NCBI RefSeq assembly: GCF_001939115.1
Contig: NZ_MQTZ01000003.1
Span: 1 to 64,000, forward strand
Length of the DNA: 64,000 bases
Origin: Leptolyngbya sp. 'hensonii'
Lineage (GTDB): Bacteria; Cyanobacteriota; Cyanobacteriia; GCF-001939115
Direction: 5' to 3'
Within the stretch, counting starts at the first letter, position 1. The number at the start of each line of letters is the position of its first letter. The notes under the pieces were generated by a model that saw only the letters and a list, made by a program, of their open reading frames with translations, searched no databases and had not been told where the DNA came from. Position numbers and translations under genes: made by a program. Of this stretch, positions 8,388 to 53,658 are shown in pieces.

Positions 8388-9161
8388 TCAAAACTGATCT
8401 TTCAGCCCTCGCAAGCGGGCAAAAGTTTGAATGGGATCGGAACTCTGGACAGCCGCCTGAAGGACCGGGTGATCCCAACGCAGGAAAGGGTTGGTTCGCT
8501 TCTCCAGACTCAGCCAGCAAGGTATCGTCGGCTGGGCATGGGATCGGGCATTTTGCACCGACTCATAGTAGCGTTGCAGGTCTGAATTTTCTCGATCGAC
8601 GGTTAAGGCAAACTGGAGGTTCTTCAGCGTGTACTCATGGGCACACCAGACCCGGGTGTGATCAGGCAGGCCCCGCAACTTTGTCAGTGAATCCACCATT
8701 TGAGCCGGTGTTCCTTCGAATAAACGCCCACAACTTCCAGAAAACAGCGTGTCTCCGCAGAAAAGCTCTCCCTGGTCATGGGCAGCAACCGGAGGAAAGT
8801 AATAGGCAATATGGGCATAGGTATGACCGGGCACAAAGAGAATCGTGCCCAGTCGATCGGCAAAGGTGACCCGATCTCCATCTTCCAGGAATACCTGCTG
8901 GCCTGGAATCCGGCCTCGATCCCTGGCTCCTCCATAAACCACAGCCTGGGGAAAGTGCTGCAGGAGGTGGGTATTCCCGCCCACATGATCGGAGTGATGG
9001 TGGGTATTGAAGATTGCAATCAAATCAGCCTGCAGAAAACTCAGGTAACGCAAAACCGGTTCAGCATCAGATGGATCAACCACCGCAGCCAGATGGTTTT
9101 GGGGATCATGCAGGAGAAAAATATAATTATCCGATCGAGCTGGAAGAGAATGAATTTGCAT
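8388..9161 (-). CDS. gloB: hydroxyacylglutathione hydrolase (glyoxalase II)
   Basis: A cytoplasmic metallo-beta-lactamase-fold hydrolase that releases D-lactate and glutathione from S-lactoylglutathione, the second step of methylglyoxal detoxification. The 257-residue protein has THHHSDH at 53-59, the VPGHTYAH segment, [23 protein letters not shown], and the glyoxalase-II C-terminal domain (EKRTNPFLR). All binuclear metal ligands are present and the length is typical. Confidence 0.94.
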
Positions 9162-9217
9162 AGCACCGTTAATTCAGTAGGATAGGACGTGAGGGAGCAC
9201 ATCCTGGGAGTCAGGCA

Positions 9218-9424
9218 ATGGCAAAAGCAGCAAGAGACAGAGCCGAGCCGGATATCAGATATATCTTAGATTGGACCCTCAACTCCGGGCAGTTGAAGCG
9301 GCAGCATCATATTCGACTGACGTTAGAAATGCTTTCTGGAAAAGGGATTACTGAAATCGATCGTCGCCAGATCAATCGTATTTTCGACTATATTCAAACA
9401 GGCCGAATTAAGTTAGTAGACTAA
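9218..9424 (+). CDS. conserved small cyanobacterial protein, unknown function
   Basis: A 68-residue charged, probably helical protein (ILDWTLNSGQLKRQHHIRLTLEMLSGKGITEIDRRQINRIFDYIQTGRIKLVD) without membrane segment or signal peptide. The start is preceded by GGGAG at a suitable distance. Composition and codon usage match neighbouring genes. I do not recognise a named domain; it lies just upstream of galE on the same strand with a 34-base gap and could be co-transcribed. Confidence 0.65.
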   Translation: MAKAARDRAEPDIRYILDWTLNSGQLKRQHHIRLTLEMLSGKGITEIDRRQINRIFDYIQTGRIKLVD

Positions 9425-9458
9425 GCCCTAGGCCATCACAAAACAGGAAATCCTTGTC

Positions 9459-10463
9459 GTGACACAGACCCCATCCACCATCCTGGTTACGGGAGGAGCA
9501 GGATATATTGGCTCTCACGCCGTTCTGGCCCTACAGCAGGCTGGTTATTCGGTAATCATCCTCGATAATCTGGTCTATGGACATCGTGACTTGGTAGAAA
9601 CGGTGTTGCAGGTAGAGTTGATTGTGGGGGACACGACCGATCGAACCCTGCTGGATCACCTGTTTGCCCAACAGGATATTGCGGCTGTCATGCATTTCGC
9701 AGGCTATGCCTATGTGGGTGAGTCTGTCCAGAATCCCGGCAAATACTATCGTAACAATGTGGTTGGAACCCTGACCCTGCTGGAGGCCATGGCCGCAGCT
9801 TCAATTCAGAACTTTGTCTTTTCCTCCACCTGTGCCACCTATGGCATGCCCAAAACAGTTCCGATTCCAGAAGCGCATCCCCAGTCTCCGATCAATCCCT
9901 ATGGGGCCAGTAAGCTGATGGTGGAGCACATTCTAGCCGACTTTGAGGTAGCCCATGGGTTGAGATCGGTCTGTTTCCGCTACTTCAATGCCGCAGGGGC
10001 CGATCCGGCAGGGCGTCTGGGAGAGGATCACAATCCTGAAACCCATTTGATTCCCCTGGTCCTACTGACCGCACTGGGGCAACGAGACTGCATTTCCATC
10101 TTTGGGACCGACTATCCTACCCCTGATGGTACCTGCATTCGAGACTATATCCATGTCGCCGATCTGGCTGCGGCCCATGTGGCGGGACTGGAATACCTGA
10201 TGCAGGGTGGCCGGAGCGAAGCCTTTAATTTAGGGAATGGCAGTGGGTTTTCAGTCAGAGAGGTGATTGAGGCAGCGCAAGAGATTACCGGGCAGCCCAT
10301 CTCTGTGGTGGAACAAGATCGCCGTCCAGGTGATCCGCCTGTTTTGGTCGGCAGCAGTGACAAGGCCCGTCAAATTCTCCACTGGCAGCCCCAATATAGC
10401 GATCTCAACACCATCCTGAAGCATGCCTGGCAATGGCATCAGTTAAGGCACAACCATGGATAA
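9459..10463 (+). CDS. galE: UDP-glucose 4-epimerase
   Basis: Interconverts UDP-glucose and UDP-galactose, feeding cell-surface polysaccharide synthesis. Extended SDR enzyme of 334 residues with the NAD motif GGAGYIGSH at 12-20, the SSTCATYG segment and catalytic YGASK, then FRYFNAAGADP and YIHVADLA, all typical of GalE. Starts with GTG after AGGAA. The GT-C glycosyltransferase follows after six bases, so the two probably form an operon that supplies a surface glycan. Confidence 0.94.
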   Translation: MTQTPSTILVTGGAGYIGSHAVLALQQAGYSVIILDNLVYGHRDLVETVLQVELIVGDTTDRTLLDHLFAQQDIAAVMHFAGYAYVGESVQNPGKYYRNNVVGTLTLLEAMAAASIQNFVFSSTCATYGMPKTVPIPEAHPQSPINPYGASKLMVEHILADFEVAHGLRSVCFRYFNAAGADPAGRLGEDHNPETHLIPLVLLTALGQRDCISIFGTDYPTPDGTCIRDYIHVADLAAAHVAGLEYLMQGGRSEAFNLGNGSGFSVREVIEAAQEITGQPISVVEQDRRPGDPPVLVGSSDKARQILHWQPQYSDLNTILKHAWQWHQLRHNHG

Positions 10464-45615: not shown

Positions 45616-46353
45616 TCAAATTTCGAAGTTAAATCCCCTCTGTTTAAGCTGCTGATATTTTTGTTCATCAAACTGGTAGAGTCGGGCAGCCCGATGACGC
45701 ACATTGGTTTGCATTTCATCCAGCTCTTGCAGGAGATCCATCTGCAAAATCTTCTTGCGGAAGTTACGTTTGTCCAGTTCCTGGCCCAACACCGTTTCAT
45801 AGAGTTGCTGGAGTTGGGAGAGGGTAAATTTGGGCGGCAAGAGTTCAAACCCGATCGGTTCGTACCGCACTTTGCCCTTCACCCGATTTAGCGCGGTGAT
45901 CAGAATGCGATCGTGGTCAAAGGCCAGTTTGGGCACCTGCTGAATTGAAAACCAGGCGGCATCACTGGCATCGGTTGTGGCTTGAATCTGATGGTCACTC
46001 AGATTGACCAGGGCATAGTAGGCCACCGTTACCACTCGTTCCCGAGGATCCCGATCGACCTCCCCAAAGGTATAGAGCTGCTCCAGAAAAACTTTTTCGA
46101 TCCCAGTTTCTTCCCGCAATTCCCGCAAGGCTGCAGCTTCAACGGATTCTTCTACCCGGACAAAGCCACCGGGCAAGGCCCATTGCCCCTCAAAGGGGGA
46201 CAACTTGCGCTGGATCAACATCACCTTCAGGTCCCTTTCGCTGAGGTCAAACCCAAAGACGACACAATCCACGGTCAGACTGGGACGAGGAAATTCGTAA
46301 GTGTAAGGCACAGATCTATTTAGAGACAGCCCCTGCGGCTGAGAAAAGTTCAT
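45616..46353 (-). CDS. NrtR-like Nudix-domain transcriptional regulator / ADP-ribose hydrolase
   Basis: Residues 25-150 form a Nudix domain; about 165-245 form a winged-helix domain of the NrtR type ([42 protein letters not shown]). NrtR proteins repress NAD-synthesis and salvage genes and sense ADP-ribose or related compounds. Here the Nudix box G-x5-E-x7-REUxEExGU is complete (residues 63-85), whereas many NrtR regulators have lost it, so the protein may also hydrolyse its ligand. The annotated start overlaps the upstream Uma2 gene by 38 bases; a GTG at 46311 (VPYTYEF) is an alternative. It is oriented away from the PP2C-ARH genes and their shared promoter motif. Confidence 0.88.
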
Positions 46354-46966
46354 CGGCAGTTAATTCCAGGTCTGGAAAGGTCGGAGATAGAAGCCGATCT
46401 CCCGTCCGAAACTGGGTGATCTGGTATTCTCCGTCTGTCAAGGAGTGGATTGAGACCGTTGGTTGCTTCGGGGAGCCGATATAGCGCACTGCTCCCAGAG
46501 CCAGATAGTCCACAATCCAGTATTCTGGAATGCCCATAAACTCATAATCTGTCAACTTGATCCCGTAATCATCCCGCCATTTGTTGCTAGCAACTTCAAC
46601 CACCAGGGCTACGGATTTCCCCTGAGTCATGGTCGATCGCTTAGCCCAAAGGGATTCTTCTGCCATCGCACCTTGAACCAACACCACAACATCTGGTTTG
46701 TAGCCGTGCTTCTCCCGATGAGGTTTTACGGTACAAGTTCGAGGAATGACATAGGGAAGCTGATGCTGCCAGATATGGATGTTCAGACAGTTGACAATAA
46801 ACCCTGAAATCTGTTCGTGGGGTCCGGTTGGGTTCATTGGAACAACAATGCCCCCATAGAGTTCATAAATGCCCCCATCTTCTGGGTACGCCTCCAAAAA
46901 TTCTTCAAAGGTGAATAAATGCCCTTGCTCTGCATCGTCCAGCAATTCTGCTTGAGTTGGAGTCAT
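46316..46966 (-). CDS. Uma2-family (DUF820) PD-(D/E)xK nuclease-like protein
   Basis: A 216-residue Uma2 protein: [47 protein letters not shown] (Asp of the PD motif), [13 protein letters not shown] (ExxxxxWRxD), [21 protein letters not shown]. The family is very numerous in cyanobacteria; nuclease activity is inferred from the fold. A paralogue lies at 52145 and shares the C-terminal region SPxFPxLxLTADxL. It is divergent from the PP2C gene and just upstream of the NrtR-like gene. Confidence 0.87.
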
Positions 46967-47035
46967 AACGCACTAAGCCTCAACGCATAAACCTAATAGT
47001 GGCACAGGGCTAGCCCTGATTAAATCGGTTCCACC

Positions 47036-47086
47036 TTGACATAGTGTCTAATATACACGATACTAGACTTAGTGTTGAATTAACAC
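47036..47086 (+). promoter_or_regulatory. sigma70 promoter with double GTGT-N7-ACAC operator (copy 1)
   Basis: -35 TTGACA (47036-47041), 17-bp spacer, -10 GATACT (47059-47064). GTGT-N7-ACAC dyads lie at 47044-47058 (in the spacer) and 47072-47086 (around +1), with ACTA-N4-TAGT at 47062-47073 between them. The start codon follows at 47089. A second copy with the same geometry is at 49059-49109. Confidence 0.8.
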
Positions 47087-47088
47087 CT

Positions 47089-47898
47089 ATGAAAGCGTTG
47101 TTTCAGATTGCTGCCGGATCGATCGCCGGACGAGACCATATCTTGACGGGAAAAAACAATCAGGATGCCCTGTACTACACCATTTCGGAGCATGCCATCC
47201 TGGCGATCGTGTGCGATGGGTGTGGCAGCGGTGCCTACAGTGAGGTGGGAGCCAGACTAGGGGCCAGGTTAACGGCAGCTACAATCGCTCAGATTCTGCA
47301 GGACACCCCAGACGCTCATCTGCAGGATGAAGACTTCTGGGATCGGGTCTATCGCACCCTGTTGCTCCAGTTCCAGGCTCTGGTACAGACCATGGGCGGC
47401 GACCGGGTACAGGCGATTCGAGATTATTTTCTGTTCACGATCGTGGGCACGGTGATCACCCCGGCAGGAGCCTCGATCTTTTCCCTGGGGGACGGTTGCC
47501 TGATTCTAAATGGCCAGGTGACTGAAATCGGTCCCTTCCCCAACAATGCGCCTCCGTATCTGGCTTACGGGTTATTGGAACAAACTTTGTCGTTCCATGT
47601 GCATGCCCAGATTCCTCTGGCTGAACTGCATACCCTGCTGATTGGCACAGATGGGGTGCTGGATTTGACCCAGGTAGCAGACAGTCCTGTTCCCGGCAGT
47701 ACGAAGCCCGTCGGCCCAATCTGTCAGTTCTGGGAGCAGGAGCACTATTTCACCAATCCCGATCGGGTGCGACGAACCCTGGCCCTGGCCAACCGGGAGG
47801 TAACCAAACCGGACTGGCAAAACCACCAGATGGTCAAGACGGCTGGACTTCTGCCTGATGATACGACTCTGATTGTGATTCGCAAACAGCTTCCCTGA
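47089..47898 (+). CDS. PP2C-like protein phosphatase (TerY-P triad type)
   Basis: A 269-residue PP2C-fold protein: KNNQDALYYT, AIVCDGCGSGAYSEVGARLGARL (Asp43 of the DG motif, with DGCGSG instead of DGMGG), IVGTVITPAGASIFSLGDGCLILNG, LLIGTDGVLDL and LLPDDTTLIVI. Metal-site aspartates are present. This divergent group with CGSG is known from TerY-P triads, where PP2C, a zinc-ribbon kinase and a vWA protein occur together; here the partners are at 49147 and 52867. The ATG at 47089 is preferred since the upstream in-frame GTG would lie inside the operator. Confidence 0.85.
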   Translation: MKALFQIAAGSIAGRDHILTGKNNQDALYYTISEHAILAIVCDGCGSGAYSEVGARLGARLTAATIAQILQDTPDAHLQDEDFWDRVYRTLLLQFQALVQTMGGDRVQAIRDYFLFTIVGTVITPAGASIFSLGDGCLILNGQVTEIGPFPNNAPPYLAYGLLEQTLSFHVHAQIPLAELHTLLIGTDGVLDLTQVADSPVPGSTKPVGPICQFWEQEHYFTNPDRVRRTLALANREVTKPDWQNHQMVKTAGLLPDDTTLIVIRKQLP

Positions 47899-47969
47899 GG
47901 GGACTTCAACTTTCACAGCCCTGATCTGAAGCTGGGTTTAATATTTACTTCCGTGATGAGGTGCAAACC

Positions 47970-48230
47970 ATGAAAGCTGTTCATTATTTACCGGAGACCC
48001 TCGATCGAGATTGCCTGTTTGTAGTCGATCCAGAGGATGACGATCGGTGTGTTTGCCTGCGCTGTGGGCGGGAGCGTCCTTCTCGACAGCCAGCCCAGCA
48101 GGATGGGTTCAGTGGGCTGACCCTCTTGGTCGCGATCGTGATTGGGATTGCCCTAGTCTGGCCAGCCTTTGAGCGCAAAACCTCGGAGGTCCAACCGGCG
48201 GCCACACCGACCCATCTGCAACGACATTGA
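47970..48230 (+). CDS. small CxxC protein with one transmembrane helix
   Basis: An 86-residue protein: polar N-terminus, CVCLRCGRERP (CxCxxC cluster, possible metal site), one hydrophobic helix (about 50-68, LTLLVAIVIGIALVWPAF) and a short tail. It lies between the PP2C and the ADP-ribosylglycohydrolase genes, with gaps of 71 and 16 bases, so is probably co-transcribed. The Cys cluster would be cytoplasmic in the usual topology. No family recognised. Confidence 0.7.
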   Translation: MKAVHYLPETLDRDCLFVVDPEDDDRCVCLRCGRERPSRQPAQQDGFSGLTLLVAIVIGIALVWPAFERKTSEVQPAATPTHLQRH

Positions 48231-48246
48231 AATCAAGGAGAAGCCT

Positions 48247-49062
48247 ATGCTGGGCGCGATCGCTGGAGACATTATTGGCTCTGTTTATGAAGCTGACAAT
48301 ATCAAAACCAAAGATTTTCCGCTCTGGAGTGAAGATAGCCAGTTTACCGATGATACGGTGATGACCGTTGCAATTGCCCAGGCGATTCTCACCGGGAGTC
48401 CGTATGTCGATAACCTCAAAGCCTACTATCACAACTATCCCGAGGTTGGGTATGGCGGAAGCTTTAGAAGCTGGGCCAAGTCCGAGAGTCGAGACCCCTA
48501 CAACAGTTGGGGCAATGGCTCGGCCATGCGGGTCAGTCCTGTGGGGTTTGCGTTCAATACCCTAGAGGAGGTGCTCCAGGAGGCGCGGCGATCGGCAGCA
48601 GTCACCCACAATCATCCCGAGGGGATTAAAGGGGCCCAGGCAACCGCAGCCGCGATTTTCTTGGCCCGCACAGGGAGCGACAAGGCTGAAATCAAGACCT
48701 ATGTTGAAAGCCAGTTTGGCTATGACCTGACCCAGACCCTGGACCAGATCCGGCCCACCTATCGATTTGATGTCTCCTGCCAGGGGTCGGTGCCCCCAGC
48801 GATCGTGGCTTTTCTGGAATCCACCGATGTTGAAGATGCGATTCGCAATGCCATCTCCCTGGGCGGGGACAGTGACACGATCGCCTGTATTGCTGGGGGA
48901 ATGGCCCAGGCCTTTTATGGCGGGGTGCCCGACAGCATGATTCAACTGCTACTGCATAAGCTGGATATCCCCCTCTGGAACGTGGTTGAGCAGTTTGCAG
49001 ATCGGTATAGCCTACCGATCTGCAAGGAAAATCCCTTGAAAAATGATCCCTCCCTACCTTGA
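48247..49062 (+). CDS. ADP-ribosylglycohydrolase (DraG/ARH family)
   Basis: A 271-residue enzyme expected to remove ADP-ribose from proteins, nucleic acids or small molecules. MLGAIAGDIIGSVYEAD is the family start; TDDT at 34-37 and GGDSDT near 206-211 are the Mg2+-binding motifs; NGSAMRVSPVGF and THNHPEGIKGAQA are also typical. AAGGAG before the ATG at 48247 fixes the start; the open frame runs 26 codons further upstream. The stop codon TGA (49060-49062) is part of the -35 box of the next promoter. Confidence 0.92.
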   Translation: MLGAIAGDIIGSVYEADNIKTKDFPLWSEDSQFTDDTVMTVAIAQAILTGSPYVDNLKAYYHNYPEVGYGGSFRSWAKSESRDPYNSWGNGSAMRVSPVGFAFNTLEEVLQEARRSAAVTHNHPEGIKGAQATAAAIFLARTGSDKAEIKTYVESQFGYDLTQTLDQIRPTYRFDVSCQGSVPPAIVAFLESTDVEDAIRNAISLGGDSDTIACIAGGMAQAFYGGVPDSMIQLLLHKLDIPLWNVVEQFADRYSLPICKENPLKNDPSLP

Positions 49063-49109
49063 CATAGTGTTTAATTTACACCATACTAGAGTTAGTGTAG
49101 ATAAAACAC
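49059..49109 (+). promoter_or_regulatory. sigma70 promoter with double GTGT-N7-ACAC operator (copy 2)
   Basis: -35 TTGACA (49059-49064), 17-bp spacer, -10 CATACT (49082-49087). Dyads GTGT-N7-ACAC at 49067-49081 and 49095-49109, with ACTA-N4-TAGT at 49085-49096. Spacing of each part equals that of copy 1; the two blocks agree at most positions. The -35 box overlaps the ARH stop codon, and the kinase start is at 49147. Confidence 0.8.
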
Positions 49110-49146
49110 TATATCTCTCACTGGCTTGGTGCCCCTGGAAACTGCC

Positions 49147-51015
49147 ATGGATGTCTACATCAACAACAAAAAAATTCGCATCGACCCGAAGCGGGCGATC
49201 GGTAAGGGTGGCGAGGCCGATATCTTTGATTTAGGCAAGGGACAGGCTCTGAAGCTGTTCAAGCAGCCCGGTCATCCCGACTATCAGGGGGCACCCCAGG
49301 AGCAGCAGGCAGCCCAGGCCCGTCTGGCGGAACACCAGCACAAGCTGCGCCAGTTTCCCGGTCAACTGCCGGGACGGGTGATCCATCCTGAAGCTCTGGC
49401 CACGGATGCCCAAGGTCAACAGGTGTTGGGCTATGCCATGCGGTTGGTGCAGGGGGCGGAGGTATTGGCTCGCTATGGCGATCGCAGCTTTCGGCAGGCT
49501 GGTATTCCCCAACAAACCGTCGTCGAGATCTTCCAGGATCTCCACGCCACCGTATCCAAGCTCCACTTTCACCAGGTGGTGATTGGGGATTTCAATGACC
49601 TGAATGTGCTGGTACAGGGCCAGTCAGCCTATCTAATCGATGCGGATTCATTTCAATATGGATCGTTTCTCTGCCAGGTGTTTACCTCTCGATTTGTCGA
49701 TCCGCTGCGATGTGATCCCCAGCAAAACCGACTGATCCTGCACCAGCCCCACAACTCGGATTCAGACTGGTATGCCTTTACCGTCATGCTGATGCAGTCC
49801 CTGCTGTTTGTCGATCCCTATGGAGGGGTGTATCGTCCCCAGAATCCGGCCCAGCGTCTGCCCCACGATGCTCGGCCCCTGCAGCGGATCACGGTCTTCC
49901 ACCCGGAAGTCCGCTATCCCAAGCCAGCCCTGCCTTACGGCATCCTGCCCGATGAACTGCTCCACCATTTCCACCAGGTGTTTGAACAAGATCAGCGGGG
50001 CGAATTTCCCCGATCGCTGCTCGATCGCCTGCGCTGGACTACCTGCACCACCTGCGGCAGGGAACATGCCCGCTCCGTCTGCCCGGACTGTGCCCAGGCC
50101 CAGCCTGGAGCTGTCAAGGAAGTAACAGTGGTGCGGGGAACCGTCGTGGCCACCAGGGTCTTTACCACTGCCGGAGTCATTCTGCAGGCTGGGATTGCAG
50201 GCGGAACCCTGCGTTGGCTGTATCACGATCGGGGCCATTTCTATCGGGAGGAGGGCACGATCGTCTTCAGTGGCGATCTCGATCCCCGGTTACGGTTTCG
50301 CTTCCAGGGAGCAGCGACCCTGGTCGGTCAGCAGGGGCAGGTGCTGACGCTGAAGCAGGGCCAGGTGAGCGATCGGCTAGCGGTTGATCTCTGGGGTCAA
50401 ACAGCCATGTTTGAGACGAATGAGGTTGGGCGCTACTGGCTACACAACGGTCAGTTGCTGCGAGATGGGCCTCTGGGACCAGAGTATATCGGGGATGTGC
50501 TCGCCCATCAGACCTGCTTCTGGGTTGGTTCTCACTTTGGGTTTGGCTTCTACCGGGCTGGGAATCTGAGCGTTGCCTTTGTGTTTGATACGCAACGGCG
50601 CGGTCTAAATGACAGCCTTAAACTGCCTCCAATTCCTGGCCAATTGCTGGATGCCCGCTGTGTCTTCAGTCAGCAGTACTGTTGGTTTCTGACCGCAAGC
50701 CAGACTCAGGGCAGAACGCTCCACCGCTGTACGTTGATCCAGTCCGACGGGACGGTGATTGCCGTAGCCGAGGCTGAAAAAGGAGATGGGTCCTGGCTCT
50801 CCAGTCTGAAGGGCCACTGTGCCGCCGGTAACTTCTTGCTGACAGCAACGGATGAGGGCATCGTTCGTCTCCAACCTGAGCAGGGGCAGATTGTCAAAAC
50901 TCGGGAGTTTCCTGACACGGAACCCTTTGTTGATACCGCCAGTCAGCTCTTTGCTGGTCAGCAGGGTCTTTACGTCGTCCGGCCCCAGGAGATCTTTTTG
51001 CTTAAGATCCACTAG
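49147..51015 (+). CDS. divergent protein kinase with zinc ribbon and beta-rich C-terminus (TerY-P triad type)
   Basis: A 622-residue protein. Kinase-like domain 1-285: glycine loop GKGGEADIF at 19-27, Lys36 in ALKLFK, catalytic-loop variant IGDFNDLNVLV with Asp148 and metal-site variant IDADSF with Asp165/Asp167, so activity is plausible despite divergence. A zinc ribbon follows (CTTCGREHARSVCPDC, from about 300), then about 300 residues of repeated short beta strands, perhaps a propeller. This is the architecture of kinases in TerY-P triads. It has its own promoter copy 2, and the nicotinamidase-like gene follows after 84 bases. Start at ATG 49147 chosen; an in-frame TTG lies at 49126. Confidence 0.83.
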   Translation: MDVYINNKKIRIDPKRAIGKGGEADIFDLGKGQALKLFKQPGHPDYQGAPQEQQAAQARLAEHQHKLRQFPGQLPGRVIHPEALATDAQGQQVLGYAMRLVQGAEVLARYGDRSFRQAGIPQQTVVEIFQDLHATVSKLHFHQVVIGDFNDLNVLVQGQSAYLIDADSFQYGSFLCQVFTSRFVDPLRCDPQQNRLILHQPHNSDSDWYAFTVMLMQSLLFVDPYGGVYRPQNPAQRLPHDARPLQRITVFHPEVRYPKPALPYGILPDELLHHFHQVFEQDQRGEFPRSLLDRLRWTTCTTCGREHARSVCPDCAQAQPGAVKEVTVVRGTVVATRVFTTAGVILQAGIAGGTLRWLYHDRGHFYREEGTIVFSGDLDPRLRFRFQGAATLVGQQGQVLTLKQGQVSDRLAVDLWGQTAMFETNEVGRYWLHNGQLLRDGPLGPEYIGDVLAHQTCFWVGSHFGFGFYRAGNLSVAFVFDTQRRGLNDSLKLPPIPGQLLDARCVFSQQYCWFLTASQTQGRTLHRCTLIQSDGTVIAVAEAEKGDGSWLSSLKGHCAAGNFLLTATDEGIVRLQPEQGQIVKTREFPDTEPFVDTASQLFAGQQGLYVVRPQEIFLLKIH

Positions 51016-51031
51016 ATCTGTCCATCGTCCC

Positions 51032-51057
51032 GTAGAGACGATTGATCGCGTCTCTAC
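51032..51057. repeat. GTAGAGACG hairpin (dispersed cyanobacterial repeat)
   Basis: A perfect 9-bp stem GTAGAGACG / CGTCTCTAC around an 8-base loop, between the kinase and the nicotinamidase-like gene. Hairpins with GTAGAGACG arms are a familiar dispersed repeat in cyanobacteria. It could weaken read-through between the two genes, but no U-run follows. Confidence 0.7.
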
Positions 51058-51099
51058 AGGCACACCCCCAACATCCCTATTGTAATAAGGAACAAACCC

Positions 51100-52155
51100 A
51101 TGACCCCTACCACAATGACCCAATTGCCGATCCCCTCCCATTTTGACCCCCGTACCGTGGGTGAAGTCTGGCGAGTCCCCTATCAGCAACGGGCGATCGA
51201 GGCCGAATCCTGGAGTAAACGGATGGGTCTGAAACCAGCAGCTAAGGACAAGACTCGCATTTGCCTGATGGCGATCGATGTTCAGAACACCTTCTGTATT
51301 CCCGACTTTGAACTGTTTGTCGGAGGCCGCTCTGGTAAAGGCGCGATCGAGGATAATGTGCGCCTGTGTGAGTTCATCTACCGTAACCTGGGTGTCCTGA
51401 CTGAGATTGCCCCAACCATGGATACTCACACGGCCATGCAAATCTTCCACCCTATGTTCTGGGTCAACGATGCCGGGGAGCATCCGACCCCAGCAGCTAC
51501 CATGATCACCGCCGAGGATGTGAAGAAGGGAGTGTGGAAGGTCAACCCTGCTGTGGCCTACAGCCTAGGCCGGGGCAACTATATGGCCCTGCAAAATCAT
51601 GCTTTGCATTATGTGGAGAAACTCAGTGCTGAAGGTAAGTATCCCCTGATTGTCTGGCCCTACCACTCTATGCTGGGTGGGATCGGCCATGCCCTGGTGT
51701 CTGCGGTGGAGGAAGCCATGTTTTTCCATAACATCGCCCGTCACAGCCAGACGGGGTTTGAAATCAAAGGGGGCAACCCGTTGACCGAGAACTATTCAGT
51801 GCTGCGCCCAGAGGTGATGGATGGGGCGGATGGCCGTCCGATCGCCCAGAAGAACACCCGCTTTATCCAGAAGCTGCTGGACTTCGATTACGTGTTGATT
51901 GCCGGTCAGGCTAAGAGCCATTGTGTCGCCTGGACGATCGATGACCTGCTAACAGAAATTCAGGCCCAGGATCCCAGCCTCACCCGCAAGGTCTACCTGC
52001 TGGAGGATTGCACCTCTCCGGTTGTAATTCCCGGTGTAATTGACTTTACGGATCAGGCAGAGGCTGCCTTCCAACGGTTTGCAGCGGCTGGAATGCACAT
52101 TGTGAAGTCTACCGATCCCCTGGATAGCTGGCCCAACCTGGAGATCAAAGGCTAA
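51100..52155 (+). CDS. nicotinamidase/isochorismatase-like cysteine hydrolase, long form
   Basis: A 351-residue cysteine hydrolase, much longer than ordinary nicotinamidases (about 200). Catalytic and metal residues can be placed: Asp60 in MAIDVQNTF, metal triad-like Asp108, His110 and His116 in [11 protein letters not shown], and nucleophile Cys275 in [11 protein letters not shown]. Long insertions lie between them (about 120-200). Nicotinamide is a likely but unproven substrate; position in a cluster with ADP-ribosylglycohydrolase and an NrtR-like regulator supports NAD-related chemistry. It ends overlapping the convergent Uma2 gene by 11 bases. Confidence 0.82.
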
Positions 52156-52750
52156 GGATCTGGTCGGCGGTCAGGTTCAATTCGGGAAAGGAGGGGGAGA
52201 GAATGCGATCGGTGTCCCGGAACTGGTTGACCTGATACTCCCCATCCACCAGATAGAACAGCGACAGGGTGGGGCGCTTGGGGGAGCCGATATCACGAAC
52301 GGCTCCCAGGGCCAGGTAATCCACAATCCAGTATTCCGGAATGCCCAGTTCCTCATAGTCTGTCAATTTTTTGTGGTAGTCGTCCCGCCAATTTGTACTG
52401 ACTATCTCAATGACCAAGTGTGCAGATTGTCCCAGAGAAATTGTTGAAGCTTTCTCCCAAAGCGGATCGTGGGTAATTGCTGATTCGTCTAAAACAGCTA
52501 CATCCGGAATATAGCCTCTGTTAGGGCTAGGGGGTTTAACAAGACAGGTTTTAGGGATGAAATAAGGCAACTTAAGGCGACGGATTTCTAAGCCTAATTC
52601 AAGCGCAATGAAGCCTGAAATCTTTTCATGACGACCAATTGGACGCACTTCTATAACCTCGCCGTCTGCTAGTTCGTACAGACCCCCATCTTCCGGATAC
52701 CACGCCAAAAATTCCTCAAAGTTGAGTAACTTATCAACGACTTGAACCAT
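52145..52750 (-). CDS. Uma2-family (DUF820) PD-(D/E)xK nuclease-like protein (second copy)
   Basis: A 201-residue paralogue of the protein at 46316: [96 protein letters not shown]. The two copies are close in their C-terminal halves, also at DNA level, but have different N-terminal halves. Sits between the nicotinamidase-like and vWA genes on the opposite strand. Nuclease role inferred only. Confidence 0.87.
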
Positions 52751-52866
52751 CTTGAACCTGCCAATTTAAGCGTTGATGACTGGGATAAAGCCAGAGCTTC
52801 ACTGATCTGATCAACACCATATCACCTTCCAAAGTAATTCAATTGTACCATAGGAGTCAAACCACG

Positions 52867-53658
52867 ATGAGTCAGAATACCCCCAACCTCAACAGTCTGT
52901 TCCAAACAGCCCAGGATGACGGCACCCTTTCCAGCGCTTCTATCCAGGCCCTGAATGTGCTGGATATCGGAGCCCAGATCCAGGCCGGATTGGGCATCCA
53001 TGTGGATGATGTCGCCGCCAGCGAGGTCGTGCTGGTCACCATGATGCCGGATGATTCCGGCTCGATCCGGTTTGGCAGCAATGCTCAGGCGGTGCGGGGC
53101 GGCCATAACGCCGTCCTGGATGCCCTGGCCACCTCCAAACAGCAAGACAATATCCTGGTCCACACCCGCTACCTGAATGGGTTTGTCCTCTATCCCTATT
53201 GCCCCTTGGCCCAGGCCGTGCGGATGGATACCCAGAACTACGATCCCAACCAGGGCACACCCCTATATGACCAGACGATCGTCCTGCTGGGAACGGTCCT
53301 GGCTAAGGCCCAGGAATTTGCCGATAATGGGGTGCCCGTAAGAACCGTAACCCTGATTATCACGGATGGGGCCGATGCCCACTCCATGAAAGCAACTGCC
53401 AAAGATGTGGCCACGATCGTCAAAGATATGCTGCGAGCTGAAACCCACATTGTTGCCGGAATGGGGATCGACGACGGCAGCACCGATTTCCGGCAGGTGT
53501 TCCGAGAAATGGGGATTCGGGATGAATGGGTCCTGACCCCCGGCAACAGTGAGGGTGAAATTCGCAAGGCATTTCAGGTTTTCTCCCAGTCTGCAGTCCG
53601 CGCCAGTCAAAGTGCAGCTAGTTTTAGCCAGTCGATCGGAGGTTTCGGAAATCCGTAG
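52867..53658 (+). CDS. vWA-domain protein (TerY-like) with intact MIDAS
   Basis: A 263-residue protein: about 50 N-terminal residues, then a vWA domain with the complete metal-ion-dependent adhesion site: DDSGS at 62-66 (DxSxS), the Thr in GTPLYDQ, and ITDGAD. After the domain comes a Ser/Gln-rich tail (SQSAVRASQSAASFSQS). GGAG precedes the ATG at 52867. Fits the third member of a TerY-P triad with PP2C and the zinc-ribbon kinase, though the Uma2 gene on the other strand separates it from them. Confidence 0.85.
   Translation: MSQNTPNLNSLFQTAQDDGTLSSASIQALNVLDIGAQIQAGLGIHVDDVAASEVVLVTMMPDDSGSIRFGSNAQAVRGGHNAVLDALATSKQQDNILVHTRYLNGFVLYPYCPLAQAVRMDTQNYDPNQGTPLYDQTIVLLGTVLAKAQEFADNGVPVRTVTLIITDGADAHSMKATAKDVATIVKDMLRAETHIVAGMGIDDGSTDFRQVFREMGIRDEWVLTPGNSEGEIRKAFQVFSQSAVRASQSAASFSQSIGGFGNP

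Follow-up and report, generated by a model that had tools for sequence, protein, structure and literature searches.

A conserved cyanobacterial operon in which NrtR appears to control a probable nicotinamidase and a TerY-P-like kinase triad

The gene cluster analysed here, in a 64,000-nucleotide stretch of the Leptolyngbya sp. 'hensonii' genome (the window), resembles several described systems. By the definition in PMC11090510, both the YegL-PphC-YegI genes of E. coli and the vWA-PP2C-kinase genes of Sphingobium show the TerY-P layout. ARG-centric systems under Nudix or WYL regulators have been described for actinobacteria, planctomycetes and proteobacteria (PMC9503650). Characterised NrtR repressors are released by ADP-ribose (PMC3680494), which is also given as the NrtR inducer in PMC9503650. 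In the window, an NrtR gene is divergent from plus-strand genes for a PP2C-type phosphatase, an ADP-ribosylglycohydrolase (ARH), a Ser/Thr kinase, a nicotinamidase-like hydrolase that we call Nic, and a vWA protein. We consider it likely that these genes form an NrtR-controlled operon that responds to consumption of nicotinamide adenine dinucleotide (NAD+) and is induced by ADP-ribose. The support for this reading is sequence-based and consists of conserved gene order, shared operators, catalytic residues, the co-occurrence of Nic with PncB and the homology of the kinase triad.

The locus shares with TerY-P and E. coli YegL-PphC-YegI a PP2C phosphatase and a Ser/Thr kinase with a C-terminal zinc ribbon, together with a vWA protein that aligns weakly with YegL. 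Unlike those systems, the cyanobacterial vWA gene is parted from the kinase gene by Nic, the kinase bears a predicted 7-bladed propeller, the genes appear to be under NrtR control, and the operon is without Ter, restriction or helicase genes. Similar to the ARG-centric systems (PMC9503650, section 3.8), it combines a Nudix-helix-turn-helix repressor, an ADP-ribosylglycohydrolase, a phosphatase and a vWA protein with no ADP-ribosyltransferase gene in the operon. However, ARG is not a constant core gene here (missing from 9 of 25 loci), the nicotinamidase-like enzyme being constant instead, and the phosphatase is a PP2C with a partner kinase rather than the rhodanese-phosphatase type. The NrtR regulons of NAD metabolism have the same Nudix-winged-helix regulator, palindromic operators and NAD targets (Nic, and nadE in one genome, G008), but here the regulon appears to extend to the kinase-phosphatase-vWA triad and ARH. 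Nic itself has the Asp-Lys-Cys triad, zinc ligands and PncB pairing of PncA nicotinamidases (isochorismatase superfamily), but is missed by Pfam PF00857 and the NCBIfam PncA model. We found no published description of NrtR, Nic, ARH and the kinase triad in one operon, in a literature search that most subscription papers lay outside.

The triad and its conserved gene order

The catalytic residues of the kinase and the four cysteines of its zinc ribbon (C307, C310, C319 and C322; longest-ORF (open reading frame) numbering) are invariant, and the protein is homologous to E. coli YegI (hhalign 97.8%, 8.5e-13). In a predicted model, 28 strands at its C-terminus (residues 334-629) make up an all-beta domain modelled with confidence, by strand count a 7-bladed beta-propeller; Foldseek matched this kinase model to propeller proteins and kinases. 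The PP2C protein keeps invariant metal-binding Asp motifs and is homologous to PphC (hhalign 2.5e-7). The metal ion-dependent adhesion site (MIDAS) of the vWA protein is intact (D70, S72, S74, T139 and D175; longest-ORF numbering), and its alignment with YegL is weak (hhalign probability 24%, E 8e-4). These alignments make the triad a homologue of YegL-PphC-YegI in E. coli and of TerY-P, weakly so for the vWA member. An earlier note on this DNA had named the three genes a TerY-P triad, which holds for the zinc-ribbon kinase and the PP2C; for the vWA protein the MIDAS is there and the link to YegL is tenuous. In ARH both metal-binding Asp motifs are invariant, and the nearest solved relative is ARH3. 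Searching the PDB by sequence with Nic, vWA, kinase and PP2C returned nothing useful.

Conservation was followed in 59 cyanobacterial genomes, in a 291-genome sample, and in 80 Nic loci fetched from named genomes plus the window (G numbers below denote genomes, L numbers fetched loci). Across the fetched loci and the window, the order NrtR (opposite strand), PP2C, none to three ARH genes, kinase, Nic and vWA had no exception in order or strand. Twenty-four loci, the window counted, are complete from NrtR through vWA and 1 further locus is without vWA; others are partial copies, several of them ended by a contig edge, and about half of all loci carry Nic alone. NrtR, PP2C, kinase, Nic and vWA stand in the window's order in 8 of 10 relatives, with ARH in 5 of those 8. 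PP2C and the kinase share the same 12 of the 59 genomes (plus one kinase fragment), and the vWA protein is found in 11 of these, which belong to different families (11/59 overall; 73-80% identity in relatives). Nic is more widespread, occurring in 199 of the 291 genomes. Each of the 42 genomes where the kinase is strongly matched has Nic as well, and for 40 of the 42 strong matches Nic follows the kinase in the same orientation at a distance of at most 4 kb. Gene order repeated across cyanobacterial families confirms, at the level of sequence comparison, a grouping beyond chance, and chance clustering was rejected on this ground. The genes listed in the earlier note were all found in the window by Pfam, motifs or homology; homologues are not scattered with linkage confined to the triad, as that note had allowed, since linkage reaches NrtR and Nic.

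As 13 of 34 operon rows belong to one Pseudanabaena-like group, locus counts are not independent. On the Nic tree the operon label costs about 10 changes, so the operon has been gained or lost repeatedly. An origin outside cyanobacteria was rejected, the sole outside case being L078, a contig binned as Candidatus Aminicenantes with kinase-Nic-vWA that is probably cyanobacterial contamination and possibly a transfer.

A conflict or defence role would make the operon a counter to ADP-ribosylation or NAD depletion by phages or rival toxins, with the triad as defence switch. This would agree with the ARG-centric systems, in which a Nudix (NrtR-type) regulator is paired with ARG, a phosphatase and often vWA (PMC9503650, section 3.8), with the defence function of stand-alone TerY-P-like modules (PMC11090510), with the PIN/antitoxin, DUF4917 (SIR2-like), DUF6615 and Uma2 genes in variable operon slots, and with the frequent loss or gain. 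However, the window's flanks are housekeeping genes (chlI, ruvC, murB and murC) and no defence island, ARH is optional, a search of plasmids with the vWA protein gave no match, and Nic, at 75-81% identity, is the best conserved protein, contrary to what rapid evolution would give. We regard a defence role as possible but unlikely.

Predicted NrtR operators

NrtR is a predicted ADP-ribose-responsive repressor of the operon. Its Nudix box is complete (G63-x5-E69-x7-R77-E78-L79-x-E81-E82-x-G84), its domain match (5.6e-30) exceeds the Pfam cut-off and falls under the narrow NCBIfam equivalog cut-off, and its nearest solved structures are AraR (5bs6, 3.8e-68) and a Nudix protein (3gz5, 3.9e-39). 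Promoter regions were taken from NrtR, or from the Uma2 insert in the window, up to the following operon gene, and 28 of 28 contained the palindrome TAGTGT-N7-ACACTA, usually in two copies. At spacer 7 these promoters held 47 sites with at most one mismatch, compared with none at spacers 3-6 and 8-10 and none in shuffled sequence; the few sites at spacers 11-12 form where the half-sites of a tandem pair meet. One copy lies inside the 17-bp -35/-10 spacer of a TTGACA promoter in 25 of the 28. With two mismatches allowed, the window has exactly 4 sites against 0.64 expected, all in the operon, two ahead of PP2C and two between ARH and the kinase. From this pattern NrtR appears to switch the conserved operon in many cyanobacteria. 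In the 5.94 Mb genome of the window, 3 of the 4 sites with at most one mismatch are in the operon; the single other one is near no NAD gene, and no genome-wide NrtR regulon was seen there.

The triad could instead be an unrelated TerY-P module that sits between NrtR and Nic and borrows the promoter with no functional tie. In line with this, triad genes are placed around Nic, and triad-free NrtR genes exist that face ARH-Nic (G009, G044, G045), Nic (G053, G058) or, in the Nic-less G027, ARH, with operators present in all except G058. Against it, every genome with a strong kinase match carries Nic, a second operator pair lies just ahead of the kinase in the window, and operators are retained where the operon is split. 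Sites stand ahead of both Nic-vWA and PP2C-kinase in G016, and ahead of Nic, vWA and nadE (NAD synthetase) in G008. We consider a merely borrowed promoter improbable. Solo Nic genes of more diverged sequence lack both NrtR and operator sites.

Other NrtR-type genes were also seen. A second NrtR in G053 faces a DUF4917 (SIR2-like) gene (L188:1100-2131) with two operators, a possible NAD-linked effector. In contig C45 of G000 (L181:5748-7067), NadD is fused to a second Nudix-NrtR_WHD in a 439-aa protein within a pncB-nadD::Nudix-nadE cluster; in G019 (L177), NadD and Nudix-NrtR_WHD are separate genes.

Nic and NAD salvage

Residues D60, K223, C275, D108, H110 and H117 of Nic are invariant in 79 of 79 sequences, as is a WPxH motif (its proline not counted). 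We take D60/K223/C275 as the catalytic triad and D108/H110/H117 as zinc ligands of the nicotinamidase pattern, with roles assigned by motif. Of the 59 genomes, 42 have Nic and 40 of these also have PncB, against 2 of the 17 that lack Nic (Fisher 4e-10). Both Nic-less pncB genomes, G019 and G027, have PncA-like genes, which adjoin pncB in G019. NadV, the other route from nicotinamide, exceeds its cut-off solely in Nic-less genomes, and none of the 59 passes the PncA model cut-off. In G042, Nic and PncB are divergent neighbours. Foldseek with a predicted Nic model (predicted local distance difference test, pLDDT, 50) gave nicotinamidase 2wta of A. baumannii as top match (prob 0.96, E 6e-3). Homologues elsewhere are annotated 'cysteine hydrolase' or hypothetical. 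Given its co-occurrence with pncB, and the PncA-like genes in the two pncB genomes that lack it, Nic is very probably the cyanobacterial nicotinamidase. Another cysteine hydrolase, tied to NAD solely via NrtR and ARH, would suit the want of Pfam or PDB sequence matches, the length (~350 aa, much longer than known PncA) and the low-confidence model, but is very improbable given the invariant triad and zinc ligands, the PncB profile with PncA-like genes in place of Nic, the gene pair in G042 and an NrtR-Nic pair in Variovorax.

That distant Variovorax Nic (~34% identity) has a weak PF00857 match and faces NrtR, by its sequence an independent instance of the same association. The pair lies on Variovorax sp. 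WDL1 plasmid 2 (L192, 3529-9773), near genes for a macro domain, a Nudix hydrolase, a nucleoside deoxyribosyltransferase and an NAD kinase. The interval that separates NrtR from Nic there holds inverted repeats, GTTAGT/ACTAAC. In Microcoleaceae-type genomes, solo Nic adjoins a conserved DedA-like protein (L069, L077, L079, L081, L083, L086-L090, L094, L095, L097 and L098), beyond which most have a pyridine-nucleotide-disulfide oxidoreductase-like gene, both named from sequence reading.

Proposed pathway and features of the locus

Cleavage of NAD+ by ADP-ribosylation or NADases would yield ADP-ribose and nicotinamide. We infer repression by NrtR, and ADP-ribose as inducer, from characterised NrtR proteins. 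Bound to the Nudix domain, ADP-ribose would take NrtR off the tandem operators and free the promoter. Nic would then convert nicotinamide to nicotinate for re-synthesis of NAD through PncB, and the ARH3-like hydrolase, present in about two thirds of operons, may strip ADP-ribose off macromolecules and so add to the free pool, while the complete Nudix box of NrtR could slowly destroy the inducer. The YegI/PphC/YegL-type switch would add reversible Ser/Thr phosphorylation. Our fuller proposal, a dedicated cyanobacterial NAD-consumption pathway in which ADP-ribose induces Nic, ARH and the triad via NrtR and NAD turnover is passed on to protein phosphorylation, seems to us about evenly poised between right and wrong.

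Several observations weigh against NrtR control in response to NAD+ consumption. The main NAD cluster of the window's genome (pncB-nadD::Nudix-nadE) has no site with two or fewer mismatches, so NrtR is probably a mostly local regulator there. No operator was found on the G008 contigs with PP2C and kinase. Many cyanobacteria have solo Nic with no NrtR, operator or triad, and ARH, at 0-3 copies per operon, is absent from 9 of 25 loci with NrtR-PP2C-kinase-Nic. Nic stands outside the Pfam family models with a poor predicted model, and the Fisher test of Nic with PncB takes no account of phylogeny.

The earlier note's central idea, a TerY-P-like triad tied to NAD or ADP-ribose turnover, gains support from the shared operators, their retention in split operons and the Nic-pncB profile. 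Its suggestion of Uma2 proteins as effectors is not supported, most operon copies being without Uma2. If the reading holds, ADP-ribose becomes a candidate signal for TerY-P-type kinase triads, one tied to a defined promoter; a probable nicotinamidase is named for most larger cyanobacteria, which have no recognisable PncA, closing a gap in NAD salvage; and NAD salvage, ADP-ribosylation and phosphorylation would be joined in one regulon with explicit operators.

Features of the operon and its insertions in the window (positions count from the first letter of the window)
Feature	Position	Strand	Remark
NrtR	45616-46353	-	Nudix + NrtR_WHD, E 5.6e-30
Uma2 gene 1	46316-46966	-	
Promoter 1: TTGACA / 17 bp / GATACT	47036-47064	+	operator 1a inside spacer
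Operator 1a, predicted NrtR site (TAGTGTCTAATATACACGA)	47042-47060	+	
Operator 1b, predicted NrtR site (TAGTGTTGAATTAACACCT)	47070-47088	+	adjoins PP2C start codon
PP2C-type Ser/Thr phosphatase	47089-47898	+	PP2C_2, 1.2e-18
CxxC small membrane ORF	47970-48230	+	
ARH, ADP-ribosylglycohydrolase	48247-49062	+	ADP_ribosyl_GH, 5.2e-39
Promoter 2: TTGACA / 17 bp / CATACT	49059-49087	+	overlaps ARH stop
Operator 2a, predicted NrtR site	49065-49083	+	
Operator 2b, predicted NrtR site, perfect match (TAGTGTAGATAAAACACTA)	49093-49111	+	
Ser/Thr kinase of YegI/TerY-P type with C4 zinc ribbon and predicted C-terminal propeller	49147-51015	+	
Nic, divergent nicotinamidase-type cysteine hydrolase	51100-52155	+	conserved residues, WPxH
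Uma2 gene 2	52145-52750	-	
vWA protein, intact MIDAS, third member of triad	52867-53658	+	

The whole locus is set between ruvC and murB/murC. Pfam matched NrtR, PP2C, ARH and Uma2, with no match for the kinase, Nic or vWA of the window. The longest ORFs overshoot for PP2C, ARH, kinase and vWA, whose starts are placed further in; the true PP2C start is the ATG at 47089 (MKALFQIAAGS).

Set against the other loci, the window has three local insertions that almost no relative shares, namely the two Uma2 genes and the CxxC ORF. Uma2 gene 1 overlaps the 5' end of NrtR and parts it from its operators. Uma2 was rejected as a system member on its absence from most relatives, and the CxxC ORF on having no homologue among the loci. 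In L033, L062, L063 and the window, a Uma2 gene separates Nic from vWA, marking a cargo slot. A further variable slot between kinase and Nic, in Pseudanabaena operons (L025, L034-L039 and L044), holds a conserved 200-aa protein and PIN/antitoxin-like pairs, and in L041 another DUF4917 gene (8953-9960), likewise a possible NAD-linked effector, lies inside the operon at the same position.

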